From Caldilineales bacterium (GTDB lineage Bacteria; Chloroflexota; Anaerolineae; J102), in assembly GCA_019695115.1 (NCBI GenBank), contig JAIBAP010000021.1:1-64000 (forward strand): a DNA stretch of 64,000 bases, given 5' to 3'. Below, piece by piece: positions 5,861-58,901 of the stretch. The notes under the pieces were generated by a model. That model was not told the DNA's origin. It saw only the letters and a program-made list of their open reading frames with translations, and made no database searches. The position numbers and the translations under genes are program-made. The number at the start of each line of letters is the position of its first letter. Within the stretch, counting starts at the first letter, position 1.

Positions 5861-7066
5861 TCAACCCACCACCTTCTTCAACCGGCCGCAGACCCAATCC
5901 ACCTCGTCTTCCGTCATCACGCCCGAGAACGGCAACGCCAACGACACTTGCCCCAATTCCTCGGTGATGGGAAAAGCACCCGGCTCGTAGCCAAAACGCT
6001 GGCGATAGAAAGGCTGAAGATGGATGGGCGAGAAATAGGGGCGGCTGGGGATGCCCACCTTCTCCAGCTCGGTCATCACCTGGTTGCGGCTGGCCGGTGG
6101 GCGCACCCGCACCACATACACGAACCACGACATCCTCGTCGTCGAGGCGGCCACGGTCGGAGTCTGGATCGCCTCCACATCGGCCAGACGCTCCTCGTAC
6201 CAGGCCGCCACCTGCGCCCGCTTGCCCAGCAACTCATCCAGGCGATGGACTTGCACCAGGCCCAGGGCGGCGCTCATCTCGTCCAGCCGGTAGTTGTAGC
6301 CCAGCCGTGAATGATTCAGCCAGGAATCGAACACATCCCGCCCCTGGTTGCGGAGCGAGCGAAACAGGTCGGCCCAGGCATCGTCGTTGGTGACGATGAT
6401 CCCGCCCTCGCCCGTCGTCATCTGCTTGTTAGGATAAAAGGCGAACACCCCCGCCTTGCCGATCACGCCCGTCTCCTGGCCCTGATAGGTGGCGCCGATG
6501 GATTCGCAGGCATCTTCGATCACGGTCAGGCCGTAGGCCTGCGCTGTGGCCATGATGGCATCCATATCGGCAGGTTGCCCGAAGGCATGAACTGGCAAAA
6601 CCGCCTTGAGCAGGCCCTGTCGACCGCCGCTGCGACCATTCCGCAACGCCGGCGGCAGCCATCTGTCCGCGGCCCGCCCGCCCCGGCAGAGGTCGGCCGC
6701 CGCCTCCGCCGCCCGGGCGGCGTCGATATTGCCGGTGACCGGGTCGACATCGACAAAGATCGGCACGCCGCGCTCGTAGAGGACGACGTTGGACGAAGCC
6801 ACGAACGAAAACGGCGTCGTGATCACCAGGTCACCCTCGCCGATGCCGGCGGCGATCACGGTCAGGTGCAGCCCGCTGGTGCCGGAATTGACGGCGATGG
6901 CGTGGGCCGCGCCCACATAATGCGCCAGCGCCTGCTCGAAGGCCACGATCTTGGGGCCGAGGCTAAGAAAGCGCGACTCCAGCACCGACATCACCGCCGC
7001 ACGTTCGGCGGCGGTGATGTCGGGCGACGACATGCCAATATCGATGTAATCACTCAAAGTAGTCAT
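5861..7066 (-). CDS. PLP-dependent UDP-sugar aminotransferase (DegT/DnrJ/EryC1 family, PglE-like)
   Basis: A 401-residue sugar aminotransferase. The PLP lysine is K214 in YPNKQMTTGEGG, and GTSGLHLTVIAAGIGEGD, VIEDACESIG and NYRLDEMSAALGLVQ are classic family motifs. It would aminate a 4-keto-6-deoxy nucleotide sugar. Position between PglD- and PglC-like genes suggests UDP-4-amino sugar synthesis (bacillosamine-type). I start at 7066 (MTTLSDYIDIGMSSPDI), the family N-terminus; the frame is open upstream into the pglD-like gene. An unusual Arg/Gly-rich insert of roughly 30 residues (DNA about 6600-6720, DLCRGGRAADRW...) interrupts the usual stretch before LPVHAFGQPADM. The 4,6-dehydratase (PglF) that would supply its substrate is not in the window. 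Confidence 0.88.
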   Translation of the reverse strand: MTTLSDYIDIGMSSPDITAAERAAVMSVLESRFLSLGPKIVAFEQALAHYVGAAHAIAVNSGTSGLHLTVIAAGIGEGDLVITTPFSFVASSNVVLYERGVPIFVDVDPVTGNIDAARAAEAAADLCRGGRAADRWLPPALRNGRSGGRQGLLKAVLPVHAFGQPADMDAIMATAQAYGLTVIEDACESIGATYQGQETGVIGKAGVFAFYPNKQMTTGEGGIIVTNDDAWADLFRSLRNQGRDVFDSWLNHSRLGYNYRLDEMSAALGLVQVHRLDELLGKRAQVAAWYEERLADVEAIQTPTVAASTTRMSWFVYVVRVRPPASRNQVMTELEKVGIPSRPYFSPIHLQPFYRQRFGYEPGAFPITEELGQVSLALPFSGVMTEDEVDWVCGRLKKVVG

Positions 7067-7073
7067 AAGCCAA

Positions 7074-7742
7074 TCATACCTCATCCACAGCCAAACGGCG
7101 GCGGCCAAGCGGGCGCGCCGGCACCCCGGCCACGGTCTCGCCCGGCGGAACATCGGTGATCACGGCCGCACCGGCCCCCACCACCGCCCATTCTCCCACC
7201 CGGCGGCGAGGCGAGACGACCGCCCCAATCCCTACCAGCGCTCCCTCGCCCACCCACACTTCGCCGCCCAGGTGCGCGCCCGGAGCGATGTGGGCATGGT
7301 CGCCCACCCGGTTGTGGTGATCGACCGTGCAGCCGGTGTTGAGGATGGCGTTGGCGCCGATGCTGCTGGCGGGGTTGACGATGGCCCCGGCGCAGATCAT
7401 GGCCCCCGGCCCGATGATGACATCCGGGGCGATGATGCTGCGCGGGTGCCGGGCGACGGCGAAACACTCGCCCGCCGCCTGCAAACGCGAAAAAAGACGC
7501 TGCCGGGTGTCATTATCGCCGATGGCGACGATGACGGCCTCGTGTGGGATGGCGGCAAGATCCTCGATGCCGCCCAGCACCGGCAGCCCCTGGATCAGCG
7601 CCCCGCGCAGACCGGGCGCGTCATCCAAAAAGCCCACTGGCTCGATCTCGTCGCCCGCCGCCTGCCGCAAAATATCGGCCACCACCTGGGCATGGCCGCC
7701 CGCCCCCAGGATGAGCACGCGGCGACGGGTGTTCGCGACCAT
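7074..7742 (-). CDS. Sugar O/N-acetyltransferase with left-handed beta-helix (PglD/NeuD family)
   Basis: A 222-residue protein. The N-terminal Rossmann-like domain starts VLILGAGGHAQVVADIL, the signature of PglD/NeuD-type transferases. The C-terminal hexapeptide-repeat beta-helix includes NTGCTVDHHNRVGDHAHIAP, where the DHH histidine is the expected catalytic base, and ends with AAVITDVPPGETVAGVPARP. It probably transfers acetyl from acetyl-CoA to the amino sugar made by the adjacent aminotransferase. The gene is 2 bp downstream of the PglC-like gene and 7 bp upstream of the aminotransferase, so the three are surely cotranscribed. Confidence 0.88.
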   Translation of the reverse strand: MVANTRRRVLILGAGGHAQVVADILRQAAGDEIEPVGFLDDAPGLRGALIQGLPVLGGIEDLAAIPHEAVIVAIGDNDTRQRLFSRLQAAGECFAVARHPRSIIAPDVIIGPGAMICAGAIVNPASSIGANAILNTGCTVDHHNRVGDHAHIAPGAHLGGEVWVGEGALVGIGAVVSPRRRVGEWAVVGAGAAVITDVPPGETVAGVPARPLGRRRLAVDEV

Positions 7743-7744
7743 AC

Positions 7745-8377
7745 TCAGAGCCGACCCCCGGCGCTGTACTCAGCGCCAAATTCCTGCATCGTCGCCTGGC
7801 CTGGTTCGCTGATCCCCTCGCGCTTGAGGATGCGCCACAACGTCATCGCCATGATCTTGAGGTCGAAACAGAAAGACAGGTGATCGACATACCACACATC
7901 CAGGGCGAACTTCTCTTCCCAACTAATGGCATTGCGCCCGTTGACCTGCGCCCAGCCGGTGATGCCCGACCGCACCTCGTGCCGCCGGCGCTGTTCGGGC
8001 GTGTAGCGGTCGAGATATTGCACCAGCAGCGGCCTCGGCCCCACCAGACTCATCTCCCCGGCCAACACGTTGATCAACTCCGGCAGTTCGTCTAGGCTGG
8101 TGCTGCGCAAAAAGCGACCAAAGGGGGTCAGACGGTCGGCGTCGGGCAGCAGGCGGCCTTGCTCGTCGCGGGCGTTGGTCATGCTGCGGAACTTGTAGAG
8201 GTTGAACAGCTTGCCGTCTTTGCCCGGCCGCCGCTGCCGGAAAAGCACCGGTGAGCCGTGATAGTAGCGCACAGCCAGCGCCAGGGCCAGAAAAAGCGGT
8301 GAAAACAGGATCATGGCCGGTGCAGCCACGACCAGATCGAACCAGCGTTTGCCGTGCTGGCGATAGAACCCAGTCAT
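7745..8377 (-). CDS. Initiating phosphoglycosyltransferase (bacterial sugar transferase, PglC-like)
   Basis: A 210-residue monotopic phosphoglycosyltransferase. It has one N-terminal membrane element (FDLVVAAPAMILFSPLFLAL), the conserved FNLYKFRSM, the catalytic Asp-Glu pair in TSLDELPEL, then VGPRPLL and GITGWAQVNGRN. Its job is to move a sugar-phosphate from a UDP-sugar to undecaprenyl phosphate at the cytoplasmic face, starting the repeat unit. It is the short PglC/WcaJ-C-terminal form, not the large multi-membrane form. The start overlaps the upstream glycosyltransferase stop (ATGA). The last residues, GAEYSAGGRL, are encoded by a REP-like palindrome (7760-7777). Confidence 0.93.
   Translation of the reverse strand: MTGFYRQHGKRWFDLVVAAPAMILFSPLFLALALAVRYYHGSPVLFRQRRPGKDGKLFNLYKFRSMTNARDEQGRLLPDADRLTPFGRFLRSTSLDELPELINVLAGEMSLVGPRPLLVQYLDRYTPEQRRRHEVRSGITGWAQVNGRNAISWEEKFALDVWYVDHLSFCFDLKIMAMTLWRILKREGISEPGQATMQEFGAEYSAGGRL
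7760..7777. repeat. REP-like palindrome in the 3' end of the pglC-like gene
   Basis: GGCGCTG-TACT-CAGCGCC is a perfect 7-bp inverted repeat with a 4-nt spacer. It encodes the AEYSA part of the C-terminus. Related palindromes occur at 43621-43640, 56312-56327 and 56342-56357. Confidence 0.75.
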
Positions 8378-45378: not shown

Positions 45379-45765
45379 TCAGGAGCGAGCAGCGATGATC
45401 AGGCCCAGGCAGACGATCAGCACACCCAGCCAGCGGCCGGTTGAGACCTGCTCGCCAAAGACGACGCCCGACAGGGCCAACACAAGAACGATGGCAAGGG
45501 CCATGAACGGGTAGGCAAAGCTGATGTCGCTGCGCGAGACGGCGCCCATCCACAGGACGGCTGCCATCACCGCCGAGGCCAAACCCACCACTACCTTGAC
45601 ATTGGTGAAGGCTGCGCCCAAGAAAGCGGGCAGCGCGGCCAGGTCGCCCGGCACAGCGCCTACCTCAAGCATGCCTGCCTTGAGTGACAACTGGCCCAGT
45701 ACGGTGAAGAAGATGGTGCCGCCAATAAAGAGATAGACAAACATCGGTTTTTGGGAACTCGCCAC
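45379..45765 (-). CDS. Small multidrug-resistance/EamA-type transporter (probable Und-P-sugar flippase subunit)
   Basis: A 128-residue protein with four hydrophobic segments (FVYLFIGGTIFFTVLGQLSL, VGLASAVMAAVLWMGAV, YPFMALAIVLVLALSGVV and LGVLIVCLGLIIAA). It has the SMR layout seen in ArnE/ArnF and EmrE. In amino-arabinose pathways such proteins flip the Und-P-linked sugar. Next to a WecE-type transaminase, an acetyltransferase and an ArnC-type transferase, it most likely moves an Und-P amino sugar to the outer face. Drug efflux is possible but the context speaks against it. It is 12 bp downstream of the transaminase. Confidence 0.82.
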   Translation of the reverse strand: MASSQKPMFVYLFIGGTIFFTVLGQLSLKAGMLEVGAVPGDLAALPAFLGAAFTNVKVVVGLASAVMAAVLWMGAVSRSDISFAYPFMALAIVLVLALSGVVFGEQVSTGRWLGVLIVCLGLIIAARS

Positions 45766-45777
45766 GAGAACAAACCT

Positions 45778-46917
45778 TCAATCCAGGGAAAAGGCCGTTA
45801 CTGCTTCGACCACCTGCATCTGTTCGGCGTTGGTGAGGGAATTGTAAAAGGGCAGCCGCAGCAAGCGGTCACTGACATCTTCGGTCACCGGGCAGTCGCC
45901 AGGCTGACCGCCCAAACGCCGGCCCATATCGGAAAGATGCAATGGCAGGTAGTGAAAGACGCTGAGGATGCCCTGGGCCTTGAGATGATCGATCAGGTTT
46001 TGGCGGGCTGCGAGTGACGGCAACAGCAGATAGTACATGTGATAGGCCTGGTCGCACTCTGCCGGGATGATCGGCCGTCGCACACCCTGCTGCGAGGCCC
46101 ATCCCTCCAGACACTCGTCATAGCACTCCCAGATCTGGCGGCGCCGGGCCTGGATTGTCTGACGCTGCTCCAATTGCGCCAGGAGAAACGCCGCCAGCAG
46201 ATCGGAAGGCAGATAGCTGGAACCGATGTCCACCCAGGTGTATTTGTCCACCTGCCCGCGAAAGAAACGGCTGCGGTTGGTGCCCTTCTCGCGGATGATC
46301 TCGGCTCGTTCGATATAGCGCCGGTCGTTGATCAGCAAGGCGCCGCCTTCGCCGCAGGTGAAGTTCTTGGTCTCGTGAAAACTCTGGGTGGCCAGGGCGC
46401 CAAAGCCGCCCAGGTAGCGCCCCTTGTATTTGCCGAACAGTCCGTGAGCGTTGTCTTCGACCACTGGCAGGCCGTACTTATCGGCAATGGCCATGATCGC
46501 ATCCATCTCGCAGCCCACCCCGGCATAATGCACGACCACAACGGCTTTGGTGCGGGGGGTGATCAGGCTGGCAAGCCGGCTTTCGTCAAGGTTGAGCGTA
46601 TCCGGCCGGATGTCGGCGAAGACAGGTCGGGCGCCGCGCAGCACGAAGGCGTTGACGGTGGAGACGAAGGTGAAGTCGGGGAGGATGACCTCGTCGCCAG
46701 GCTCGATATCGAGCAGCAAGGCCGTCATCTCCAAAGCGTGGGTGCAGGAGGTGGTCAGCAGGGCTTTGGCAACGCCGAGTTGCTCTTCGAGCAGCGCATG
46801 GCACCGTTTGGTGAATGACCCATCCCCCGAGGCATGGCCCGAGGCGATGGCCTGCTGCATGTAGACCGTCTCGTTGCCGGCCAGGACGGGCTGATTGAAA
46901 GGAATGCGATAGGTCAT
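45778..46917 (-). CDS. wecE: dTDP-4-amino-4,6-dideoxygalactose transaminase (WecE/RffA-like)
   Basis: A 379-residue PLP aminotransferase. It matches the WecE family from its first residues (IPFNQPVLAGNETVYMQQAI, DGSFTKRCHALLE, TTSCTHALEMTALLLDIEPG). The PLP Lys is in FHETKNFTCGEGGA, and the late segment is KYTWVDIGSSYLPSDLLAAF. It forms a 4-amino-4,6-dideoxyhexose from dTDP-4-keto-6-deoxyglucose. I start at 46917 because ATGA overlaps the upstream acetyltransferase stop; the four extra codons upstream are unlikely. rmlA/rmlB, needed for its substrate, are not in the window. Confidence 0.9.
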   Translation of the reverse strand: MTYRIPFNQPVLAGNETVYMQQAIASGHASGDGSFTKRCHALLEEQLGVAKALLTTSCTHALEMTALLLDIEPGDEVILPDFTFVSTVNAFVLRGARPVFADIRPDTLNLDESRLASLITPRTKAVVVVHYAGVGCEMDAIMAIADKYGLPVVEDNAHGLFGKYKGRYLGGFGALATQSFHETKNFTCGEGGALLINDRRYIERAEIIREKGTNRSRFFRGQVDKYTWVDIGSSYLPSDLLAAFLLAQLEQRQTIQARRRQIWECYDECLEGWASQQGVRRPIIPAECDQAYHMYYLLLPSLAARQNLIDHLKAQGILSVFHYLPLHLSDMGRRLGGQPGDCPVTEDVSDRLLRLPFYNSLTNAEQMQVVEAVTAFSLD

Positions 46918-47951
46918 ACGGTCAACCATTTGTGAAACGCATGACGAGCATCGGCGATCCGCCAGCGCAGGTTGGCATAGCCCCGTTGCACAGGATAGTT
47001 GTTGATGTGGGTAGGCCCCTCGATCAGTTCGGCGCTGCCATCGAGTTGTCGCATCCCGTGAACGGTCAGAAGCGAGAACAACCCTCTGCCAAAATACTGC
47101 GGATGGATGCCGGCAATGCTGTAGTGACCCACCCGAGCTTTCAAATTGGCTTCTAGCGCCGAAGGTTTCTTCCAGGCCGAGTAGCCCGCCAGCTTGCCGT
47201 CGATCTCAGCGACGATGATCCAATCGGCGTAGCCGCGCACACAAGAGCGAATCCATTCGACATAGACGTTGACGGCGTCCTGGTGTGAAATGTTGGGGTC
47301 GGCGTGAAAACGACCAAAATGGTTGCCAAATGAGGCCAGCGCCAGCTCGCACAGTTCTGGCTCATCGCCACTGCCGGCAATGCGAATCTGAACGTCGCCC
47401 GCCGGCTGTGGGCGGCCCGGCGATGGTCGGGCGGCGGTGGCCGGGGGCCAGTCGGGCGTGAGCGGGTTGCGGCGGTAGTCGAAGATGAAATCGAGCAGCG
47501 TATCCACGAGGAGGAAGCCATTCGTCTCCAGGGCATGGATGGTGGGGATATCATCGGTATAGGTCTTGCAGAGCAGGCCGTGGATGCCCCGCTTGCTGGC
47601 AGACTGCGTGGCCGCGTCGAGCAAGCGGGCGCGCGTCGAGAGGGCATCGCCGTTTTCTGGCCCCACGCCCAGGTGTTTGAGCGCCGCCATCGGCTTGCCC
47701 AGAACCCTCGTCTCCCAGGGCAAAGGCGTGAGGGCAAGCATGCCGATGAGCTGCCCCCCCTGGCTGGCGAGGAACAACTCGCCCTCCCCATCCTGAACAC
47801 TGGCGGCAAGGTCCTGAAACCAGTAATCGTCGAGATCGGCGCCCAATTCCGGCGCCAGAAAACGGTAGGGTTTCTGGCCGGCCTGGGCCAGAAGCGGGCG
47901 TACCAGGTCTAGCTGGTCGCTTGGGCAGGAAGAGATTGCGATCGGGCTCAT
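46914..47951 (-). CDS. GNAT acetyltransferase (probable dTDP-fucosamine acetyltransferase, WecD-like)
   Basis: A 345-residue protein with an N-terminal GNAT-like half (FLASQGGQLIGMLALTPLPW) and a C-terminal GNAT domain. The C-terminal half has NHFGRFHADPNISHQDAVNV and YVEWIRSCVRGYADWIIVAE, the WecD-type signature, plus GIHPQYFGRGLFSLLTV as the acetyl-CoA loop. Combined with WecE it should make dTDP-4-acetamido-4,6-dideoxygalactose. The N-terminal half looks like a second, degenerate GNAT repeat. It overlaps neighbouring genes by 4 bp on each side. Confidence 0.82.
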   Translation of the reverse strand: MSPIAISSCPSDQLDLVRPLLAQAGQKPYRFLAPELGADLDDYWFQDLAASVQDGEGELFLASQGGQLIGMLALTPLPWETRVLGKPMAALKHLGVGPENGDALSTRARLLDAATQSASKRGIHGLLCKTYTDDIPTIHALETNGFLLVDTLLDFIFDYRRNPLTPDWPPATAARPSPGRPQPAGDVQIRIAGSGDEPELCELALASFGNHFGRFHADPNISHQDAVNVYVEWIRSCVRGYADWIIVAEIDGKLAGYSAWKKPSALEANLKARVGHYSIAGIHPQYFGRGLFSLLTVHGMRQLDGSAELIEGPTHINNYPVQRGYANLRWRIADARHAFHKWLTV

Positions 47952-48883
47952 CGCCCCTCCTCTGGTTCAGTCGTTGTGCGGATGACGTAGACGGGTCGAT
48001 CCATCATGCGGAAATGCATGCGCGCCAGATACTCGCCGATGATGCCGAGGGCGAAAAGTTGTGCGCCAGCGAAGACGGCGATGACAGAAGCCAGGAACGG
48101 AAAGCCCGGCACGCTGTAGCCGAGCAGCAAATAACGGCCGATCACGTAGGCCAGGATGGCCATCCCAAACAGCGTGAAGCTGAAGCCGATCAGGCTGGCA
48201 AGCTGCAACGGCCAGGTGCTGAACCCGGTCATCATGTTCAGGGCCAGGGTGACGAGCCGGCCAAAGGTGTAGTTAGAGACGCCCATCTGCCGCGGGTCGT
48301 GCCGCACCGGGATGGCGGCGAAGCGGGTGGTGCCCCAGGTCAGCAGGACATCGATCGAGGTGAACGCGCCCCGGTAGGAGGTGAAAGCCTGGCGCAGATC
48401 GGTGCGAAACGCCCGAAAGGGACTGACTTTGCGGGCCGTCTCGGCGCCCATGGCCCCTTGCAGCGCCAGCTTGGTGATGCTGGAGGCCAGGTTGCGCCAG
48501 AGGCCGTGCTGCTGCATTTGCGGAGCGCCGTAGACCACATCGAAGCCTTCCGCCAGTTTGTCCAGCAGTCGGGGGATTTCTTCGGGTGGGTTTTGCAGGT
48601 CGTCGTCGAGTGTGACCACGATGTCGTGGCGTGCGGCCCGAATGCCACACAGCAGGGCGTTATGCTGGCCGTAGTTGCGCATCAGGTTGATACCCCGCAC
48701 CTGGGGGTGCGCCTGGGCCTGCGACTCGATGGCTTGCCAGGAACGATCCCGGCTGCCATCGTTGACCAGGATGATCTCGAAGGGCCGGCCGAGGTCGCTG
48801 AGCACGGGTTCGAGACGCGCGATCAAAAGCGGCAGCGAGCCTTCGCTATTATAAACAGGGATGACAATCGAAAGGGATTCCAT
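47948..48883 (-). CDS. Polyprenyl-phosphate glycosyltransferase (GT2, ArnC/GtrB-like)
   Basis: A 311-residue GT2 enzyme: SIVIPVYNSEGSLPLLIARL, EIILVNDGSRDRSWQAIESQ, RNYGQHNALLCGIRAARHD and the metal site VVTLDDDLQNPPEEIPRLL. Two C-terminal membrane segments follow (LIGFSFTLFGMAILAYVIG, FLASVIAVFAGAQLFALGIIG) with EYLARMHFRMMDRPVYVI. This is the ArnC/GtrB/DPM1-type layout, making Und-P-sugar at the cytoplasmic face. Donor is likely the dTDP-4-acetamido sugar of the two adjacent genes. It overlaps the acetyltransferase gene by 4 bp. Confidence 0.92.
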   Translation of the reverse strand: MESLSIVIPVYNSEGSLPLLIARLEPVLSDLGRPFEIILVNDGSRDRSWQAIESQAQAHPQVRGINLMRNYGQHNALLCGIRAARHDIVVTLDDDLQNPPEEIPRLLDKLAEGFDVVYGAPQMQQHGLWRNLASSITKLALQGAMGAETARKVSPFRAFRTDLRQAFTSYRGAFTSIDVLLTWGTTRFAAIPVRHDPRQMGVSNYTFGRLVTLALNMMTGFSTWPLQLASLIGFSFTLFGMAILAYVIGRYLLLGYSVPGFPFLASVIAVFAGAQLFALGIIGEYLARMHFRMMDRPVYVIRTTTEPEEGR

Positions 48884-48913
48884 TCGCTTCAGGGGCAGGA
48901 CTGGCTGCCCATC

Positions 48914-51052
48914 TCAAGGCACAAGGGACGGGAACATGGGTTTGCTGGCCTCCTGCTGTCGGATGGCCGCCTCTTGTTGGCGCAGCCACTCAAGCCCCGC
49001 CCCAGGATGCGCCATCTCGATGGCGGCCATCTCATAGAGCCGCAAGTTCTCCGTCTCGGCCACAACCTGCCCCAGGCCCGTCCCATCGAGATAGTCCGCC
49101 GGCTTCGAGACCAAAATGAAGTCAGGAACTCGGTCCAGTTCGGCCAACCAGAGATTCTGAAAACTGAGGTCGCCATCGATGATCAACCCGGATTGGTAGT
49201 AGGTGGGGTGCTCCGACAAAGCCAGCATGACGTAGAAAGCAAAAAAGAAGGGATCGTCACGCGGCACATTGACCAGGACCAGGGCGGGGTTGGCGCGATT
49301 GAGGGCGGTGGTGATCGGATTCAGATCGAGCGCATAATCGACCCGATTGGCGCGGGCGCGGGCAAACCGTCCCCCTGCCACAGGGTCGAAGGGAAGCAAG
49401 AGGCCAACTCCGATCACAAGGGCCAACCACACCGCCAGGAAAGCCAGGAGGATCCGCCGGCGGGGCGCTTGCAGACGGTTGGCCAGGCGGTCGGCGCCGA
49501 TCACCATGCCCAAAACGATGCAGGCAAAGACATAGGTGTACGCTTTCCCGGCTGCCTTCGGGTTCTGAAGTAACCACAGAGCAAGGAAGGTGAGGACGCC
49601 GGCCAGCCCCACGAAGAAGAGGGCGCGCTGCCGGTTCTGGCTGCGGTCGCGCAGACAGGATAGCAAACCGAACAGCCAGAAGACGGCAAGGGCAAGCCCC
49701 GCTACCTGAAGAATGAGCGTCAGAACCAGGGAGATGGTGGGCGGGGCGCCTCGCCAAAGCTGATAAATCGGCAGGCTGGTCAAGCCGCCGAGCTTGTCGG
49801 CCAGAAGCACATTGAAAGTCACCGCTTCATGCTGCATTTCTGCCTCGACGCTGCCGGCTGCGTTCAAGAAGCCGGGCAGATAATAGCCAACCTGGCCCGT
49901 GAGGACGAGGAGAAGCAGGGCGATGATCGCCACCGAAGCATAGCTTGCCAGCCATCCCTTCCCATCGCGCAGGACGACCAGATCGTAGACCAGGTGGAGC
50001 AGTAATGCCCCGACGATGATGATGCCAAACGGCCGATACACCACCGCCAACGCCGCCCAGGCGAGCGCCGTCAGGAAACGCCACCGCCAGCGATTCCCGG
50101 CCTGCTCCGGGCCGCTCTCGCCGCCGGAGGGTCGGCTCTCGCCGCCGGAGGGTCGGCTCTCGCCGCCGGAGGGTCGGCTCTCGCCGCCGGAGCCTCGTGC
50201 GACCAGCATCCAGCCAAATACAGCCAGGGCCAGCAACGGGGTGGCGCCAAGTTCGGCGCTGGCATCCGTCTCGATCACCAGCCGCACCCAGAAGCCGACC
50301 GTAGCCGCCAGCGCCGTCAATGCCAGCAGCCAGCGTCGCAAGTTGACTTGAAAGCCCAAAGCGACCAGGGTTGGCAGCATCATCACACTCAGAATGATGT
50401 GAAACGGGTAGTAGAAACGCTGGGTGCTGACGCCTGCAAGCTGCGCCAGCCAGGCCAGGTTCGATACATGGTTGATCGGGAAGCTGCGACCGAGAAAACG
50501 GGCCGAGTAGAGGGCGGTGGGCGACTCGGCGGCCAGGCGCGTGATGTTGTCAAGGTTGGCGGCGGTGAGGCTGGAGCCGGCCCGAATCACATCCCAATCG
50601 ACCTTTCGCACCGTTTCGGCCAGCGACATGTAGGTGAACGAGTCGCCGGGGTTGGAGCGAAAGGCCGTGTATTGCCCGCCCATGACCAGGGCCGGCGCCC
50701 ACAAGATGGCGACGCCAACCAGGAAAACGCCGGCCCACTTGAAAAGTGTGGGCAGCCGAATATCGCTCAGCAGCGCCTGATCCCTGTGGCGCTCCCAGAT
50801 GACCAGACCGGCGCTCAAGATCAACAACGATGCCGCCAGAGGAAAGGCCCAACGGCTGACAGGGCCGATGAACATGACCAGCGGCAGCCCCAGGACAGAT
50901 GTCATGGCCAGGGCCGTGACCGGCGCAAGCGCCAAAGCCAGGAGGGAGCGCCGATGGACGCCGCGCAGCAAGGCCAGGGCCGGCCCCCAGCCGATGCCAA
51001 AGAGGATGATCAGGCAAAGCAAGAGGCCACGGCTCAGATCGGCGCTCATCAC
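48914..51052 (-). CDS. GT-C-type membrane glycosyltransferase with internal SGGESRP repeat
   Basis: A 712-residue polytopic protein with about 12 hydrophobic segments (LLLCLIILFGIGWGPALALL, LGAVLLHL-type helices) and a C-terminal soluble part of about 140 residues. A loop after the first membrane helices contains GGQYTAFRSNPGDSFTYMSL, and the layout is that of Und-P-sugar-dependent GT-C transferases. It should receive the flipped sugar and attach it to glycan or protein outside. A four-unit SGGESRP repeat (50114-50197) interrupts a loop near residue 295. It overlaps the sulfotransferase gene at 51049 by 4 bp. Confidence 0.7.
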   Translation of the reverse strand: MMSADLSRGLLLCLIILFGIGWGPALALLRGVHRRSLLALALAPVTALAMTSVLGLPLVMFIGPVSRWAFPLAASLLILSAGLVIWERHRDQALLSDIRLPTLFKWAGVFLVGVAILWAPALVMGGQYTAFRSNPGDSFTYMSLAETVRKVDWDVIRAGSSLTAANLDNITRLAAESPTALYSARFLGRSFPINHVSNLAWLAQLAGVSTQRFYYPFHIILSVMMLPTLVALGFQVNLRRWLLALTALAATVGFWVRLVIETDASAELGATPLLALAVFGWMLVARGSGGESRPSGGESRPSGGESRPSGGESGPEQAGNRWRWRFLTALAWAALAVVYRPFGIIIVGALLLHLVYDLVVLRDGKGWLASYASVAIIALLLLVLTGQVGYYLPGFLNAAGSVEAEMQHEAVTFNVLLADKLGGLTSLPIYQLWRGAPPTISLVLTLILQVAGLALAVFWLFGLLSCLRDRSQNRQRALFFVGLAGVLTFLALWLLQNPKAAGKAYTYVFACIVLGMVIGADRLANRLQAPRRRILLAFLAVWLALVIGVGLLLPFDPVAGGRFARARANRVDYALDLNPITTALNRANPALVLVNVPRDDPFFFAFYVMLALSEHPTYYQSGLIIDGDLSFQNLWLAELDRVPDFILVSKPADYLDGTGLGQVVAETENLRLYEMAAIEMAHPGAGLEWLRQQEAAIRQQEASKPMFPSLVP
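50114..50197 (-). repeat. 21-bp coding tandem repeat, four units
   Basis: GCTCTCGCCGCCGGAGGGTCG is repeated three times perfectly with a fourth variant copy. It adds SGGESRP units in a loop of the GT-C protein and looks recently expanded. Confidence 0.92.
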
Positions 51053-51828
51053 TCGTGCACCTGCCAGGCGCGCAAGCGATTCATGACCCGCAGCCGCCGC
51101 CGATCCCAGGCCAGACGAGTGCTCTGCGCCCGCACGGTCTCCTCGAAGCGCTGCCGTGCGTAATCGTAGAGTCGTTGGTCGAGGCGGTTGTAGTCGCGCA
51201 GCCGATCGAGGAGGTCATCGGTCAGTTCAGCGTCGCCGAGACGATGTTTGCTGACATTGATCGAACGGTAGACCGGCAGTCGCCACTTCAAAGCGCGGGC
51301 CATGAGCAGAAGCGAGTCGTCGAAGGCTTCGACCAGGCCCACGGCGACGAAACGCTCGTCCATGCGCCGGATGGCCTGTTCGAGCATGGCCTCGGTGCAG
51401 GCGCCAAAGGGCGCATCCTGGGCGGTGGCGAGGTAGCGCAGTTGGGCGTTGTCCAGTTGTCGGGATTGAGTTTCGTTGATGAAGCCCGCCAGCCCATTCG
51501 CCATCACTGTGGCGTGGTTCTTGTGTTCGGGATGGTCGCGCACGAAACGGTAATAGGAAATCACGCGGGCGATGGGGTCGCGCAACATCGTTGCATAGAC
51601 CGCAGGCCCATCGACGTGCTCGTGCAGACCGTAGGGAAAGTGACCCTGTACGAGGCGGACTTGAGCCTTCTGCTCTGCCGGCAGGTTCAGGTAGTCGCGA
51701 AAGGGATCGCCTGCTGTCTGGCTGGTGATGCAGATTTGCTGGCGACGGTATTGGCCGCGGATGACCGTCCGCAGGGTTCGCCCGGCCGTTTTGGGGATGT
51801 GGATGAAGATGATCAGGGGTTCGGGCAC
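51049..51828 (-). CDS. Sulfotransferase family 2-type protein
   Basis: A 259-residue member of the same subgroup as 39701-40591: nucleotide loop IFIHIPKTAGRTLRTVIR, acceptor-site QGHFPYGLHEHVDGPAV, 3'-phosphate motif YATMLRDPIARVISYYRFV, the PFGACTEAMLEQA segment and FVAVGLVEAFDDSLLLMARA. It would transfer sulfate from PAPS to a polymer sugar. It overlaps the GT-C gene by 4 bp, so sulfation may be linked to the Und-P-sugar module. A heptamer array lies upstream of its start. Confidence 0.9.
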   Translation of the reverse strand: MPEPLIIFIHIPKTAGRTLRTVIRGQYRRQQICITSQTAGDPFRDYLNLPAEQKAQVRLVQGHFPYGLHEHVDGPAVYATMLRDPIARVISYYRFVRDHPEHKNHATVMANGLAGFINETQSRQLDNAQLRYLATAQDAPFGACTEAMLEQAIRRMDERFVAVGLVEAFDDSLLLMARALKWRLPVYRSINVSKHRLGDAELTDDLLDRLRDYNRLDQRLYDYARQRFEETVRAQSTRLAWDRRRLRVMNRLRAWQVHE

Positions 51829-51951: not shown

Positions 51952-53931
51952 TTAGAGGGTGGTCGCGCCGGTGATGCGCACGGCCAGCGAGGCGCCATCC
52001 AGGCGGTGGTGGCGCAGGGCTTCGGCGGGTGTGCCGCAGGCCGGGTAGCCCTCCACCGCCAGTTTGATCACCGGCCGGCTCGACTCACCGCCGGCCGCCA
52101 GCGCGCCGAGCAGACTATCGGCCAGTCCGCCCACCGGGGCATGGTCTTCGAGCACGAAGACGCGGGGGTAGGGGCCGATGGTCTCGGCCAGCCAGTCCGC
52201 ATCGACACGATTCAGCCAGGGCATGTCGATCACCTTCAGCCCGAAGCCCTGTTCGGCCAGTAGTTCGGCGGCGGTCAGGGCCTCGTGCAGCATCACCGGG
52301 CCATAGGCGAGGAGGACGGCGTCCCGGCCGGTGGTCAGGGCGACGCCGCGGCCGGGCGTGAGGCGATAGGCGGGGGGGAGGTCGATGTGGCGGGGCGAAG
52401 GGCCGATGGCCAGACGGATGGCGCAGTTCTCGCTCGCCTGGTTGACGCAATACTCGACCGCCATCGCCGTCTCGGCCGGGTTGCACGGCTGCAGGATGGT
52501 CAGGTTGGGCAGGGCCGCCAGCAGCGAGATGTCGCGCAGGCTCTGGTGCGACTTGCCGGGGCCGGCCGGGATCAGCCCGGCGTAGTGCAGGGCATAGATG
52601 ACCTTCGTTTTCTCGCTGGCGTTGTTGTAGATCTGCTCGTTGGCGCGCGAGGCCAGGAAGCTGGCGAAGGAATTGACCACCGGCAGCAGCCCCATCCTGG
52701 CCAGCCCGCCGGCCATGCTCACCATGTCCTGCTCGGCAATGCCGTTCTGGATGAAGCGGTCGGGGTAGGTCAGCTCGAACTCGCGCACACGGCAATCGGC
52801 GGCCAGGTCGGCATCCAACACCACCAGGTCGGGGCGCTCGGCCGCCAGCTTGACCAGGGCCTTGCCGTAGGCCTCGACCACATACTCGGCCGCCGCTTTG
52901 AGCGATTGGCCCGCCTCGGCGCCTTTGCTGATCGGCTCGCCCAGGGCATTGCGGGCCACCGGCGCCGCCGCTGCTTCGGCGGCGATGGTCTTGAGCGCGA
53001 CGGCGGGCAGGCCCAGGCTGCGCAGGAGATCATCGACGCGGGCGATGATCTCGGCGTGCCCGGCTGCAAACGAGGCGTCGTCGGGCGCGCCAGCGTGCCA
53101 GCGATAGTAGCCGCCGGCATCCTTCAGCGCCCGCGGGTGTTCCATGAACGAGACGCCCCGGCCCTTGATCGTGTCGGCGATCAGGGCGGTGGGGCGGTCT
53201 GTGATCTGGCGGAACTCGGCCAGGGCGGCGGCCATCTGGCTGAAGTCGTGGCCGTAGCAACGCCGCACCTGCCAGCCGAAATCGGCGAATTTGCGCTCGA
53301 TGTCGCCCAAATCGACGATTTCACGCACCTGTTTATCCGATTGCACCTTGTTGTGGTCGACGATCACCGTCAGGTTGCCGATGCCCTGGTGGACGGTGGA
53401 GTGCAGGGCCTCGTAGTTCTGGCCTTCCTGCAATTCACCGTCCCCCAGCATCACGAACACCCGCCCGCCGTGGCCGGCCATGCGCTTGGCCCAGGCCATG
53501 CCCCGGCCCTTGGAGATGCCCATGCCCAATGAGCCAGAGTTGGCCTCGATGCCTCTCACACCTACATCGGGGTGCCCATCCAGGCCGCCGAAGCGCCGTA
53601 ACTTGAGCAGTTTCTCTTCGGGCAGGACGCCGAGCGAAAAGAGCACAGCATACAAGCCGGGCACGTCGTGGCCTTTGGACGAGAAGTAGATGTCGCGATT
53701 GGGGTCGTCGTAGCCCAGGGCGATGGTGTTCATCTCCTGGTAATACAGCCAGACGACGATGTCCATGGCGCTGAAGCTGGAGCCGAGATGCCCGGAACCG
53801 GCTCGTTTGACGGCGGCGAGGGCGTTGGCCCGGCACATGTCGGCCAGCAGGGCCAGGCGCTGGTGCGGTTCCGCGACGGCCTGGTTGACGCGGGTGAATT
53901 CGGCTTGGGGGATGAGGTGGATGTCGGGCAC
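51952..53931 (-). CDS. Transketolase family protein (complete, single chain)
   Basis: A 659-residue ThDP enzyme. The N-terminal half has SGHLGSSFSAMDIVVWLYY, FSSKGHDVPGLYAVL and the ThDP site MLGDGELQEGQNYEALH followed by VDHNKVQSD. The pyrimidine-binding half has FIQNGIAEQDMVSMAGGLA, where the catalytic Glu is in AEQDM, and FASFLASRANEQIYNN. It matches the transketolase-like enzymes of surface-sugar loci more than the central-metabolism enzyme (shorter linker). It could make an unusual ketose or aldose for the nonulosonate module upstream; substrates are unknown. A heptamer array precedes its start. Confidence 0.88.
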   Translation of the reverse strand: MPDIHLIPQAEFTRVNQAVAEPHQRLALLADMCRANALAAVKRAGSGHLGSSFSAMDIVVWLYYQEMNTIALGYDDPNRDIYFSSKGHDVPGLYAVLFSLGVLPEEKLLKLRRFGGLDGHPDVGVRGIEANSGSLGMGISKGRGMAWAKRMAGHGGRVFVMLGDGELQEGQNYEALHSTVHQGIGNLTVIVDHNKVQSDKQVREIVDLGDIERKFADFGWQVRRCYGHDFSQMAAALAEFRQITDRPTALIADTIKGRGVSFMEHPRALKDAGGYYRWHAGAPDDASFAAGHAEIIARVDDLLRSLGLPAVALKTIAAEAAAAPVARNALGEPISKGAEAGQSLKAAAEYVVEAYGKALVKLAAERPDLVVLDADLAADCRVREFELTYPDRFIQNGIAEQDMVSMAGGLARMGLLPVVNSFASFLASRANEQIYNNASEKTKVIYALHYAGLIPAGPGKSHQSLRDISLLAALPNLTILQPCNPAETAMAVEYCVNQASENCAIRLAIGPSPRHIDLPPAYRLTPGRGVALTTGRDAVLLAYGPVMLHEALTAAELLAEQGFGLKVIDMPWLNRVDADWLAETIGPYPRVFVLEDHAPVGGLADSLLGALAAGGESSRPVIKLAVEGYPACGTPAEALRHHRLDGASLAVRITGATTL

Positions 53932-55522: not shown

Positions 55523-56251
55523 CTATGAGATGGAAGGCAGCCGCGCCTGGCCGCGCTCGATCAGGTATTCGGCATACCACCAATCTTTTTCATCGTTGAT
55601 GTCCAGCCCCTCGAAGTTGGTGGTCAGAAAAGGCGTGACCGCGACCCCGGCAATCGTCCTTGTCTCCAACACAACCCGCGTCCAGGCGATTTCCAGGCTG
55701 GCGTTCTGGATGTAGATCTCGGGCAGGGCCTGGTAGGGTGTGCTGTGCCAGGGTTGCGCGGCCGGGCCAAAGGGGAGGAGGGGCAAGAGCCTTTCGCCAC
55801 GGATCACCCACATCTTGCCGGGGTGCTGTTTGCATTTCTCGACCGCCCGCAACGAGTCGGCGCCTTCGGCCTGCAGGAACTGTTCCCAGGCCCGACGGAT
55901 GGTCTCGGGCTGGCGGAAGGGGCTGGTGGGACGCAGGATGCTGAAGCCATCATAGTTGCGGCCGCCAGCCTGTAAGCGGCGCAATGTGTATTCCACCCAC
56001 TCGATGTCGGGCGAAAGCTCGCCTGCCATCTCGACCGGGCGCAGAAAAGGCGCTTCAGCCCCGTACCGCCGTCCGATCTCGGCGTACTCCTCGGCATCGG
56101 TGGAGAGGACGACATCGGCAAAAACGCCACTCTGTCGGGCAGCGGCGATGGTGTAGGCCAGCAAGGGATGTCCGGCCAGCGGACGTACATTCTTGCCGAT
56201 CACGCGTTTCGAGCCGGCGCGGGCAGGGATAAGGGCGATGCAGGTGGGCAT
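55523..56251 (-). CDS. neuA: CMP-nonulosonate cytidylyltransferase (NeuA/KdnC family)
   Basis: A 242-residue cytidylyltransferase: CIALIPARAGSKRVIGKNVR (nucleotide loop), LAGHPLLAYTIAAARQSG, VVLSTDAEEYAEIGRRYGAE and ILRPTSPFRQPETIRRAWEQ with LDINDEKDWWYAEYLIERG at the end. It activates a nonulosonic acid to its CMP form. I start at 56251 (MPTCIALIPARAG); the longer frame upstream is repeat-derived. With NeuB and the KdsC-like phosphatase it forms a nonulosonate module. An 83-bp gap (55440-55522) to the GDSL gene has nothing recognisable. Confidence 0.92.
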   Translation of the reverse strand: MPTCIALIPARAGSKRVIGKNVRPLAGHPLLAYTIAAARQSGVFADVVLSTDAEEYAEIGRRYGAEAPFLRPVEMAGELSPDIEWVEYTLRRLQAGGRNYDGFSILRPTSPFRQPETIRRAWEQFLQAEGADSLRAVEKCKQHPGKMWVIRGERLLPLLPFGPAAQPWHSTPYQALPEIYIQNASLEIAWTRVVLETRTIAGVAVTPFLTTNFEGLDINDEKDWWYAEYLIERGQARLPSIS

Positions 56252-56258
56252 GGGGGAT

Positions 56259-56288
56259 GCGTGTTCCGTGTTGCGTGTTCCGTGCTCA
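56259..56288. repeat. Heptanucleotide repeat (CGTGTTC/CGTGTTG)
   Basis: Four units of the CGTGTTG family immediately upstream of neuA; same family as 19024-19150. Confidence 0.8.
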
Positions 56289-56304
56289 GCCTTCATGGGG
56301 CAGC

Positions 56305-56364
56305 ACTCCCCGCGCTGTACCCAGCGCCCTCCCTACTCCCCGCGCTGTACCCAGCGCCCTCCCT
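56305..56364. repeat. Two tandem 30-bp units each holding a REP-like palindrome
   Basis: Two identical 30-bp units (56305-56334 and 56335-56364) each contain GCGCTG-TACC-CAGCGC. They lie between the SDR stop and the neuA start, where they may act as mRNA-stabilising or pausing hairpins. Confidence 0.85.
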
Positions 56365-57182
56365 CACCACGCCGTCCAGCCGCCGTCCAGGACGACATTG
56401 GCCCCGGTCATGTACGATGAAGCCTCGGAAGCCAGGAAAATGACGGCGCCGTTGTACTCGTCCTCGCGCGCCATCCGGCCCAGGGGGACGCGAGCGGTGT
56501 AGTTGCGCAGGAAGGTCTCGTCCTGGTGGTTGAAGACGCCGCCGAAGGTGAGGGTGTTGACTCGCACGCCCTTTTCGGCCCAATACGTGGCCAGGTAGCG
56601 GGTGAGATTGAGCAAGCCCGATTTCGAGACCGAGTAGGCCACCGGCTTGAAGAAGGGGGCGCCGCTCTGCGCTCGATAGGTGTAAAGGCGCTGGTCGGGC
56701 GAGACCAGGCCATAAATGGAGGAGATATTGATGATCGAGCCGCGCCCGGCTGCCGCCATCGCCCCGCCAAATACCTGGCAACACAGGACCACGCCCTTGA
56801 GGTTGACATCGAGCACACGGTCGAGCGAGGCGACGGGGTAGGTCTCGAAGGGGCCGTTTTCCTCGGCCGGGGCATTGGGCGGAGAATCGAGGCCGGCATT
56901 GTTCACCAGGATGTGGGGCGTCCCCCAGGCCGTCTCGATCTGCCTCAGCCCGGCCGCCAACGACGCCCGCTCGGTGACATCCACCTGGCAGAACAGCAGG
57001 TCGCCGGCCCCGGCGCGGTCGCCAAATCGGGCGGCGACGAAATCGGCGTCGGTGCGCACATCCAGCACGGCCACACGGGCGCCGCGCCCGGCCAGGGCCA
57101 GCGTGAATTGGCGGCCCAACTGCCCCAAGCCGCCGGTGACGACGGCGATTTTGCCTTCGAGACTGAAGAGGTCTGGACTCAT
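56364..57182 (-). CDS. Short-chain dehydrogenase/reductase (PtmA-like)
   Basis: A 272-residue classical SDR: cofactor-binding AVVTGGLGQLGRQFTLALAG, catalytic INISSIYGLVSPDQ (Ser) and YSVSKSGLLNLTRYLA (Tyr and Lys), HILVNNAGLDSPPNA, ending GANVVLDGGWTAW. In nonulosonate loci such SDRs (PtmA-like) oxidise or reduce a sugar precursor or the final acid. Position between neuA and the phosphatase gene supports such a role; reaction unknown. Heptamer arrays bound it on the upstream side. Confidence 0.9.
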   Translation of the reverse strand: MSPDLFSLEGKIAVVTGGLGQLGRQFTLALAGRGARVAVLDVRTDADFVAARFGDRAGAGDLLFCQVDVTERASLAAGLRQIETAWGTPHILVNNAGLDSPPNAPAEENGPFETYPVASLDRVLDVNLKGVVLCCQVFGGAMAAAGRGSIINISSIYGLVSPDQRLYTYRAQSGAPFFKPVAYSVSKSGLLNLTRYLATYWAEKGVRVNTLTFGGVFNHQDETFLRNYTARVPLGRMAREDEYNGAVIFLASEASSYMTGANVVLDGGWTAW

Positions 57183-57183
57183 G

Positions 57184-57240
57184 GTCAGTGGTCAGTGGTC
57201 AGTATTCAGTGGTCAGTATTCAGTGGTCGGTATTCAGTGG
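57184..57240. repeat. Heptanucleotide tandem repeat (CAGTGGT/CAGTATT)
   Basis: Seven to eight units; it provides the TGA stop (57234-57236) of the KdsC-like gene. Confidence 0.88.
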
Positions 57241-57782
57241 TTGGGGCTTGCCCTGAGCGTAGCCGAAGGGGTCGGGGTCGGTTCAGAAAGGCACAGGTTG
57301 AAGAGGTCGCAGATTTCGCGCACGGCGCCGTAACCGCCTGGGCGCTGCGTGCGGTGAGCGGCTGCCGCCAGGACATCGGGATGAGCATCGGCGACGACAA
57401 TAGGCAGGCCGGTCACGGCCAACACCGCCAGATCGTTGATGTCGTTGCCCACGAAGGCGGTCTGGTCGAGGCCGAGACCCCTCTCGCTGGCCAGACGAGC
57501 CAGGGCCTGGGCTTTGTCTTTGCAGTCGTGAATGCAGGCGATCCTCAGTTTGCGGCTGCGCTCGAGCACCACCGGGTTCGACTCGGACGAGATGATGACC
57601 GGTTCGATGCCCAGGGCCTCGAGTTTGCGCAGACCGATGCCATCTCCCCGCCAGCAACGCACCGCCTCGCGCCCATCCTCGAACACATAGACAGCGTTAT
57701 CGGTGAAGACGCCGTCGAAATCGAACGCTACCAGACGGACGCGGCGGATGCGGTCGGTCAGGGTGGGGGTTGGGGCCGGCAT
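57234..57782 (-). CDS. KdsC-like HAD phosphatase (nonulosonate/Kdo-phosphate phosphatase)
   Basis: A 182-residue C0-type HAD phosphatase. Motif I is VAFDFDGVFTDNAVYVFED (both Asp), motif II VIISSESNP, and motif III/IV the Lys region followed by FVGNDINDLAVL. KdsC and the KDN-9-phosphate phosphatase of Bacteroides are close relatives. Here it should dephosphorylate the product of the adjacent NeuB. The final ~20 residues (EPTPTPSATLRASPNH) and stop are translated from a GAGCGTAGCCGAAGGG-type repeat plus the heptamer array, so the native C-terminus was probably about 165 residues. Confidence 0.9.
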   Translation of the reverse strand: MPAPTPTLTDRIRRVRLVAFDFDGVFTDNAVYVFEDGREAVRCWRGDGIGLRKLEALGIEPVIISSESNPVVLERSRKLRIACIHDCKDKAQALARLASERGLGLDQTAFVGNDINDLAVLAVTGLPIVVADAHPDVLAAAAHRTQRPGGYGAVREICDLFNLCLSEPTPTPSATLRASPNH

Positions 57783-57786
57783 GGGG

Positions 57787-57846
57787 TCGGTAACCAGTAA
57801 CCAGTAACCAGTAACCAGTAACCAGTAGTCAGTAGTCAGTGCTCAG
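57787..57846. repeat. Heptanucleotide tandem repeat (CAGTAAC/CAGTAGT)
   Basis: Eight near-perfect units between the neuB stop and the KdsC-like start. Confidence 0.9.
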
Positions 57847-58901
57847 GGGCTGGGGTTGAGGTCGGCCCAGGTGATGGCCGCATCCGCTGCCAGGGGGTGC
57901 AAGGTGCGGCGGCCGAGGACGTCATCCAGATGGTAGGGTGGCAGCCCGCCGCTCGGCGACTTGATGGCCACATCGCCGGGGGCGAGGGTATGACCGGCGG
58001 GCAAGTCGTGGGCGGCAACAAGCGACTTGGACATCTTGCGCAGGGCCTCTTCTTCGGGCGGGAGCACATGTTTGATGCCATCGCCCAGGGCGGCGCGGGC
58101 GCGGTGCAGGTCGCGCGTCATCTTGCTCATCCCGATCGGCTCCAGCGACATGGCATGGTCCGAGCCTTTCCAGGTGTGGTTGAGCGTGAAGTGCTTTTCG
58201 ATCACTCGCGCCCCCAGCAGATAGGCCACCACCGCCATAGCGATGCCGTTGTAGTGGTCCGAGAGACCGATCACCAGTTCCGGATAGCGGTCGCGCAGAC
58301 TGGAGATGACCCGCAGGTTCATATCCTCGGCGGCGGCGGGATAGATGGCCGTGCACTGGAGGAGGCAAAGCTGGGGGTTGATGGGCATGATGGCATCGTA
58401 GGCGCGCTGGATGTCGTCCCACGTCCCGCCGCCGGTGCTGAGCAAGAGCGGTTTCTGGACACGGGCGGCATACTTCAGCAGCGGGATGTTCTTGAGGTCG
58501 CCGGAGGCCAGCTTGATGGCGGGAGCGTCGAGTTCGGCCAGGAAATCGACACTGGGCATGTCGAAGGCGGTGGAGAAGAAGGTGACGCCGATCTCCTGGG
58601 CGTATGCCTTCAGTTCCAGATATTCCGCCATGCCAAATTCCAGATATTCCCGGTGTTCGCCGTAGGTGCGACCAAAGCTGTTGCGATGCTCGTAAGGTTT
58701 GTTATAGGCCTCGCGGGTGAAAAGCGTGCGGTTGTCGCGTTTCTGCAGTTTGACGGCATCGGCGCCGCACTCTTTGGCCGCATGAAACAGCGCCTTGGCC
58801 TTTTCTACCTCACCCTGATGGTTGTGGCCGATTTCGGCGATGATGTAGCAGTTGCTATCATCATTGATCTCGAAGTTGTCGATGGTGAGACTGCGGTTCA
58901 T
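57843..58901 (-). CDS. neuB: Nonulosonic acid synthase (NeuB family, with SAF domain)
   Basis: A 352-residue PEP-condensing synthase: YIIAEIGHNHQGEVEKAKAL, DAVKLQKRDNRTLFTREAY, FFSTAFDMPSVDFLAEL, KLASGDLKNIPLL, LLSTGGGTWDDIQRA and IGLSDHYNGIAMAVVAYLLG. The C-terminal ~60 residues form the antifreeze-like SAF domain (LVAAHDLPAGHTLAPGDVAI). It condenses PEP with a six-carbon aldose or its phosphate to a nine-carbon acid. The phosphatase next to it suggests a phosphorylated product, as in KDN synthesis from mannose 6-phosphate; ManNAc cannot be excluded. A good match to the family length. Confidence 0.92.
   Translation of the reverse strand: MNRSLTIDNFEINDDSNCYIIAEIGHNHQGEVEKAKALFHAAKECGADAVKLQKRDNRTLFTREAYNKPYEHRNSFGRTYGEHREYLEFGMAEYLELKAYAQEIGVTFFSTAFDMPSVDFLAELDAPAIKLASGDLKNIPLLKYAARVQKPLLLSTGGGTWDDIQRAYDAIMPINPQLCLLQCTAIYPAAAEDMNLRVISSLRDRYPELVIGLSDHYNGIAMAVVAYLLGARVIEKHFTLNHTWKGSDHAMSLEPIGMSKMTRDLHRARAALGDGIKHVLPPEEEALRKMSKSLVAAHDLPAGHTLAPGDVAIKSPSGGLPPYHLDDVLGRRTLHPLAADAAITWADLNPSP

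Follow-up and report, generated by a model that had tools for sequence, protein, structure and literature searches.

The window analysed here is a stretch of 64,000 nucleotides from Caldilineales bacterium (Chloroflexota, class Anaerolineae), placed on contig C21 of a genome with 135 contigs and 5.99 Mb. Its minus strand carries a five-gene module which probably encodes a three-component glycosylation system operating via undecaprenyl phosphate (Und-P) and bringing along its own sugar-making genes. There is good support for an Und-P pathway; more reserve applies to the exact sugar, the dTDP donor of the glycosyltransferase, the identity of the flippase, the acceptor, and a link to sulfation. 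The module and one associated gene are the following:

45379..45765, minus strand: SMR/EamA-type small membrane protein, 128 aa, proposed Und-P-sugar flippase
45778..46929, minus strand: WecE, dTDP-4-amino-4,6-dideoxygalactose transaminase (NF008687 and TIGR02379 above cut-off)
46914..47951, minus strand: WecD-like N-acetyltransferase with an N-terminal extension, tandem-GNAT shape (family profile, fold)
47948..48883, minus strand: ArnC/GtrB-type GT2, proposed Und-P transferase for a 4-acetamido sugar (PF00535, full-length ArnC alignment)
48914..51052, minus strand: GT-C fold transferase, 712 aa, proposed to act in extracellular sugar transfer (predicted structure)
51049..51828, minus strand: sulfotransferase, associated gene outside the core (PF06990, PF03567)

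All six open reading frames (ORFs) lie where an earlier, sequence-only reading of this DNA had placed them, on one strand and with spacings of -16 to +30 bp. Transcription proceeds in the order GT-C, GT2, acetyltransferase, WecE, SMR, with a 30-bp gap between GT-C and GT2, overlaps of 4 bp (GT2/acetyltransferase) and 16 bp (acetyltransferase/WecE), and a 12-bp gap between WecE and SMR. This order is not due to chance, since the identical five genes recur in identical order in locus L053 (genome G441, same family) and, except for two extra membrane proteins inserted between WecE and SMR, also in L052 (G477, of the same genus). In these two loci, 14-64 bp separate the matched stretches of GT-C and GT2. 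Judged by gene content and order, the window, L053, and L052 would each unite an Und-P-sugar synthase, a flippase, and a GT-C, the set that defines a three-component system.

Protein families, folds, gene order, co-occurrence, and the presence of rmlA/B are directly established, and a route connecting them can be proposed. RmlA and RmlB, encoded elsewhere in the genome, would supply dTDP-4-keto-6-deoxyglucose, which WecE would aminate at C4 to yield dTDP-Fuc4N (dTDP-4-amino-4,6-dideoxygalactose), the presumed substrate of the WecD-like acetyltransferase. The ArnC-like GT2 would then transfer the 4-acetamido-4,6-dideoxyhexose from dTDP to Und-P, the SMR protein would flip the lipid-linked sugar across the membrane, and the GT-C would add it to an acceptor, a glycan or perhaps a protein, made by the surrounding sulfated, nonulosonate-containing polysaccharide cluster.

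Assignment of the module proteins

The transaminase is the most firmly assigned component. It scores 576.5 bits with the equivalog model NF008687 (cut-off 375) and 538.2 bits with TIGR02379 (cut-off 434.85), shares 56% identity with WecE of Escherichia coli, and retains the SFHETKN lysine motif at residues 183-189, as the sequence-only reading had anticipated in naming a WecE-type enzyme. In eight of eight further cassettes examined, WecE also exceeds the curated cut-off. The equivalog match and the identity to E. coli WecE suggest a galacto configuration at C4 of the product. The absence of dTDP-4-keto-6-deoxyglucose synthesis genes from the genome had been named as evidence that would speak against the pathway; both genes are present, RmlB (473.6 bits, cut-off 365.1) lying close to a long-type RmlA (452.6 bits, cut-off 320.25) on contig C4. 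The module had also been called complete, which holds for its five genes but not for rmlA/rmlB, which are contributed by contig C4. RmlA and RmlB are found within the same stretch as the cassette in four loci, with both equivalogs confirmed in L062.

The acetyltransferase remains far below the cut-offs of the WecD models (25.6 versus 219 bits for NF008212; 22.2 versus 195.1 bits for TIGR02382). In a search of the host genome with the WecD hidden Markov model, a GNAT protein on contig C61 reaches 32.7 bits and the module protein 25.3 bits. Since this score cannot separate the module protein from other GNATs of the genome, the assignment was based on a family profile and on the fold. In an hhalign comparison with E. 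coli WecD, the profile of the cassette acetyltransferases covers 216 of 224 residues (99.3%, E 1.9e-20), and the predicted model (pLDDT 90.9) superimposes on WecD (2fs5) with a Z of 20.1 and a root-mean-square deviation (rmsd) of 2.5 over 217 of 222 residues in VIA-align. Tandem GNATs give slightly higher Z values and more aligned residues, but larger rmsd values (3.8-5.4). The protein displays the two-domain architecture of WecD, preceded by an extra N-terminal part of ~70 residues, and the assignment as a WecD-like acetyltransferase thus stands on profile and fold.

The GT2 shows the features of the polyprenyl-phosphate GT2 superfamily (ArnC/GtrB/DPMS-like), i.e. a DDD motif, C-terminal membrane helices, and a full-length alignment to ArnC (residues 3-308 aligned to 9bhc), together with a PF00535 match of 104 bits. 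Identity amounts to 36% with E. coli ArnC and 27% with GtrB. An assignment as ArnC or GtrB proper was rejected: the protein fails the ArnC equivalog (NF007986, 214.6 versus 529 bits), and the phylogenetic tree separates window-type GT2s, as a single group with an SH-aLRT support of 99, from ArnC and GtrB of E. coli. Of the former description as an ArnC/GtrB-type Und-P transferase, the Und-P type is retained, in a clade tied to WecE, but the enzyme is neither ArnC nor GtrB itself. Its donor may be dTDP-Fuc4NAc (the N-acetylated form of dTDP-Fuc4N) rather than a UDP-sugar. The same genome harbors a second DegT aminotransferase adjoining an ArnC-like GT2 (G000:C6:39969-42102, L183) that is ~30% identical to the module GT2; this is perhaps another pair dedicated to an Und-P-amino-sugar.

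The SMR protein is a candidate flippase because of its position. Close homologues (60-83% identity) directly follow WecE in L053, L060/L082, and L093, all from Chloroflexota, and an analogous place is occupied by GtrA in L147 and L159, the loci of Thiohalocapsa marina and Thauera sp. 28. The cassette of Thiohalocapsa marina comprises GT2, WecD-like GNAT, GtrA, a methyltransferase-like gene, and WecE, that of Thauera sp. 28 GT2, WecD-like GNAT, GtrA, and WecE, with mostly overlapping ORFs in both; these represent a GtrA variant of the three-gene core of GT2, acyl gene, and WecE. Both GtrA proteins pass PF04138 (55.1 and 58.6 versus 26.1 bits). In classical systems, GtrA has been proposed to flip Und-P-glucose (PMC11127046). 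That this setting features two flippase types unrelated to each other argues that the sugar is flipped on Und-P. A different small protein with four transmembrane segments (38% identity to ArnE) adjoins a GT-C homologue in L178 (1374-4614), in a cluster devoid of ArnC and WecE.

No sequence match to the 712-aa protein was found in Pfam, NCBIfam, or the PDB. Its predicted model (pLDDT 81.7) nevertheless reveals a GT-C fold, in agreement with the earlier claim: Foldseek alone yielded few confident matches, and the fold was settled by VIA-align, in which the 42 best rows are GT-C fold proteins or complexes (oligosaccharyltransferase/STT3, PglB, ArnT, AftA, PMT, ALG12, and others), with ArnT reaching a Z of 18.1 over 438 residues. 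Consistent with the GT-C superfamily, an acidic residue (D137) accompanies this transmembrane fold in the likely first outer loop. R132, N134, D137, and Y141 of this loop are invariant in eight homologues, and D137 is a plausible catalytic residue. Membership in the ArnT (GT83) family by sequence was rejected (hhalign 0.2%, no Pfam match). Residues 288-315, between two membrane segments, consist of an in-frame heptapeptide repeat (three times SGGESRP, then SGGESGP), which is absent from the GT-Cs of L052 and L053 and poorly modelled in the prediction.

Distribution of the WecE-GT2 core

The association of GT2 and WecE was surveyed in 249 genomes drawn from the host's class. GT2 homologues fall into 21 genes with at least 51% identity and many with at most 38%, with a clear gap in between. 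WecE is present in 20 of the 21 genomes harboring a GT2 of the former kind (the exception is G520) versus 13 of the 228 other genomes of the class (Fisher p ~7e-20, shared ancestry ignored), and both genes lie within ~4 kb in 15 of the 21. GT2 paralogues below 40% identity mostly lack a link to WecE.

A separate scan of named genomes considered the 80 best GT2 relatives (58-75% identity). In 48 of these (48 of 61 if WecE-less loci with short flanks are excluded), a WecE gene of the same orientation lies no more than 5 kb away. The median gap of 789 bp corresponds to the size of one acetyltransferase gene. In five more of the 80, WecE lies on the opposite strand (L083, L111) or is truncated by a contig end (L100, L125, L156). 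A WecF homologue was absent from the about 93 loci searched, and the GT2 is therefore the only transferase seen to follow WecE.

The three-gene core is real and old. It occurs in about 12 phyla: Chloroflexota, Acidobacteriota, Myxococcota, Planctomycetota, Verrucomicrobiota, Pseudomonadota, Methylomirabilota, Omnitrophota, Zixiibacteriota, Sumerlaeota, and Armatimonadota, as well as in one metagenome-assembled genome (MAG) labelled Actinomycetota. The relatives of the window are labelled as Anaerolineae/Chloroflexota MAGs. Phylum labels of MAGs can be wrong, but two of the carriers, Thauera sp. 28 and Thiohalocapsa marina, are cultured organisms. It appears somewhat probable that these loci represent an undescribed class of extracytoplasmic glycosylation systems that is widespread, with members in about a dozen phyla; in such systems, an ArnC-like clade would act on dTDP-4-acylamino-4,6-dideoxyhexoses and be combined with exchangeable acyl genes (WecD-like or WbqC) and with a flippase (SMR/GtrA) and GT-C swapped between lineages.

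Alternative readings of the module

Several observations weigh against the proposed pathway. With regard to the donor, to our knowledge, the known prototypes of such GT2s all use UDP- or GDP-sugars, and about one third of the GT2 relatives have no WecE nearby. A GtrB-like GT2 could form Und-P-hexose from a UDP-sugar, with the WecE/WecD product consumed by an unrelated cytoplasmic glycosyltransferase in a repeat unit, the genes being mere neighbours. ArnC uses a UDP-sugar, GtrB-type enzymes have been described as using UDP-sugars (PMC11127046), and the cluster also encodes a WcaJ-type initiating transferase and further glycosyltransferase-like genes. This alternative is nonetheless very improbable, given that the same clade accompanies WecE across so many phyla and co-occurs with it within the class, whereas the more distant paralogues mostly do not. 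On the tree, near/far labels for WecE change 26 times versus 31 in shuffles, i.e. they cluster weakly; the WecE-less GT2s are scattered through the clade and thus do not constitute a separate sub-lineage.

A second alternative keeps the Und-P pathway and changes its sugar to another 4-acylamino-4,6-dideoxyhexose, e.g. Qui4NAc (4-acetamido-4,6-dideoxyglucose) or a derivative with a different N-acyl group. It draws on the distance of the acetyltransferase from WecD by sequence, with 25.6 bits being no better than the score of unrelated GNATs of the genome, and on a WbqC-family gene taking the place of the acetyltransferase in L062; because of such replacements in some cassettes, the N-acyl group may vary. 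The WecE protein, far above its equivalog cut-off and with only 130 bits on the DesI model, speaks for Fuc4NAc, and another sugar is considered unlikely. In L062 (9900-11218), WbqC-family and methyltransferase-like genes are situated between GT2 and WecE, with RmlB and RmlA after WecE; the layouts of L066 and L069 resemble that of L062, in which the WbqC match was established. WbqC could be an N-acyl-modifying enzyme in L062.

The SMR protein falls below the cut-offs of the ArnE/ArnF models (28.8 versus 92 bits for NF011625; 36 versus 99 bits for NF002816) and narrowly misses that of EamA. The full five-gene set with this GT-C and SMR was encountered only in the window genome, L052, and L053, in contrast to the widespread core. 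GT-C homologues (30-35% identity) are also encoded in four genomes (L178-L181) without ArnC or WecE, next to a transketolase-like gene, sulfotransferases, or NeuB-type genes, which indicates that this GT-C goes with the host cluster, where it may use a different donor. These loci weaken the notion of the GT-C as a cassette-specific part, and the protein may be a recruited component of the host cluster or use another Und-P-sugar. The corresponding third alternative, in which the Und-P-sugar is made as predicted while the GT-C serves the sulfated-polysaccharide cluster with another Und-P-sugar and the true acceptor transferase is encoded elsewhere, is likewise judged improbable. The GT-C directly precedes the GT2 in all three WecE-bearing genomes of the host's family, their GT-Cs being closest to one another (39%), and in other lineages the core is bordered by proteins of GT-C type or with multiple membrane spans. 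Such neighbours carry GT-C Pfam domains (PMT_2, GT87) in L046, L087, L093, and L102; the other multi-spanning neighbours of the core that were examined gave no match to a GT-C family.

Relation to known systems and the surrounding cluster

Among the closest known systems is the ArnBCADTEF pathway of E. coli, which modifies lipid A via Und-P-linked 4-amino-4-deoxy-L-arabinose and likewise combines a C4 sugar aminotransferase, a GT2 acting on Und-P, SMR-type flippase genes, and a GT-C. ArnT and the window GT-C share the fold, but no sequence similarity. The module further differs in harboring WecE instead of ArnB and one SMR gene instead of two, in the expected dTDP- rather than UDP-sugar, and in N-acetylation in place of the N-formylation of the Arn pathway, no deformylase being part of the module. 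The sugar-nucleotide route itself resembles the Fuc4NAc branch of the enterobacterial common antigen (RffG, RffH, WecD, WecE, WecF), as seen from the identity to WecE, the WecD profile, and RmlA/RmlB. There, WecF takes the place held here by the ArnC-like GT2, for which reason Und-P, and not a lipid-PP repeat unit, is the expected carrier of the sugar in the module. GtrABC-type and pentofuranose three-component systems (PMC11127046) also consist of an Und-P-sugar synthase, a flippase, and a GT-C, with GtrA shared by L147 and L159; in contrast to these, the module carries donor-making genes, and a dTDP-sugar is expected.

The module thus appears to work like the Arn and three-component systems with the sugar-making part of the enterobacterial common antigen, the wide distribution of its core being the surprise. 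A survey of 12,939 genomes published in 2020 found Fuc4NAc pathways only in Gammaproteobacteria (PMC7725333); if the widespread class is genuine, Fuc4NAc-type sugars are not confined to that group. The literature searched contained no description of a dTDP donor for a three-component system or an Und-P transferase, and no paper on Und-P-linked Fuc4NAc was found in the open-access literature. Should the GT2 accept dTDP-Fuc4NAc, a dTDP-sugar would serve as donor of an Und-P transferase, which could be exploited in glycoengineering to build side chains of 4-acetamido sugars. Such a finding would also help to clarify how the predicted sulfated, sialic-acid-like polymers of such Chloroflexota are decorated.

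A connection to sulfation, proposed by the sequence-only reading, holds in a weaker form. The sulfotransferase (51049-51828; PF06990 40.4 bits, cut-off 27; PF03567 33.0 bits, cut-off 22) contains PKTAG and LRDP motifs, and its gene (51828-51049) shares 4 bp with the start of the GT-C gene. Sulfotransferase and GT-C genes adjoin one another in three loci (the window, L053, and L181), an arrangement absent from L052; a functional link is thus suggested rather than firm.

Further genes of the window belong to the surrounding glycan cluster. A transketolase-like protein (51952-53931), below the tested transketolase and 1-deoxyxylulose-5-phosphate (DXP) synthase cut-offs, has counterparts with 64-81% identity in the related clusters L052, L053, L178, L181, and L182. 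Positions 55523-58901 encode a NeuB/PseI-like synthase, a KdsC-like phosphatase, a PseF-like cytidylyltransferase, and a short-chain dehydrogenase/reductase (SDR), resembling a nonulosonic-acid-type pathway, with the NeuB, PseI, PseF, and KdsC models each scoring below their own cut-offs. At 5861-8377, a NeuD/PglB/VioB-family acetyltransferase (228 versus 160.8 bits), a DegT aminotransferase, and a WcaJ-like initiating transferase are encoded side by side, possibly forming a diacetamido-sugar initiation module.

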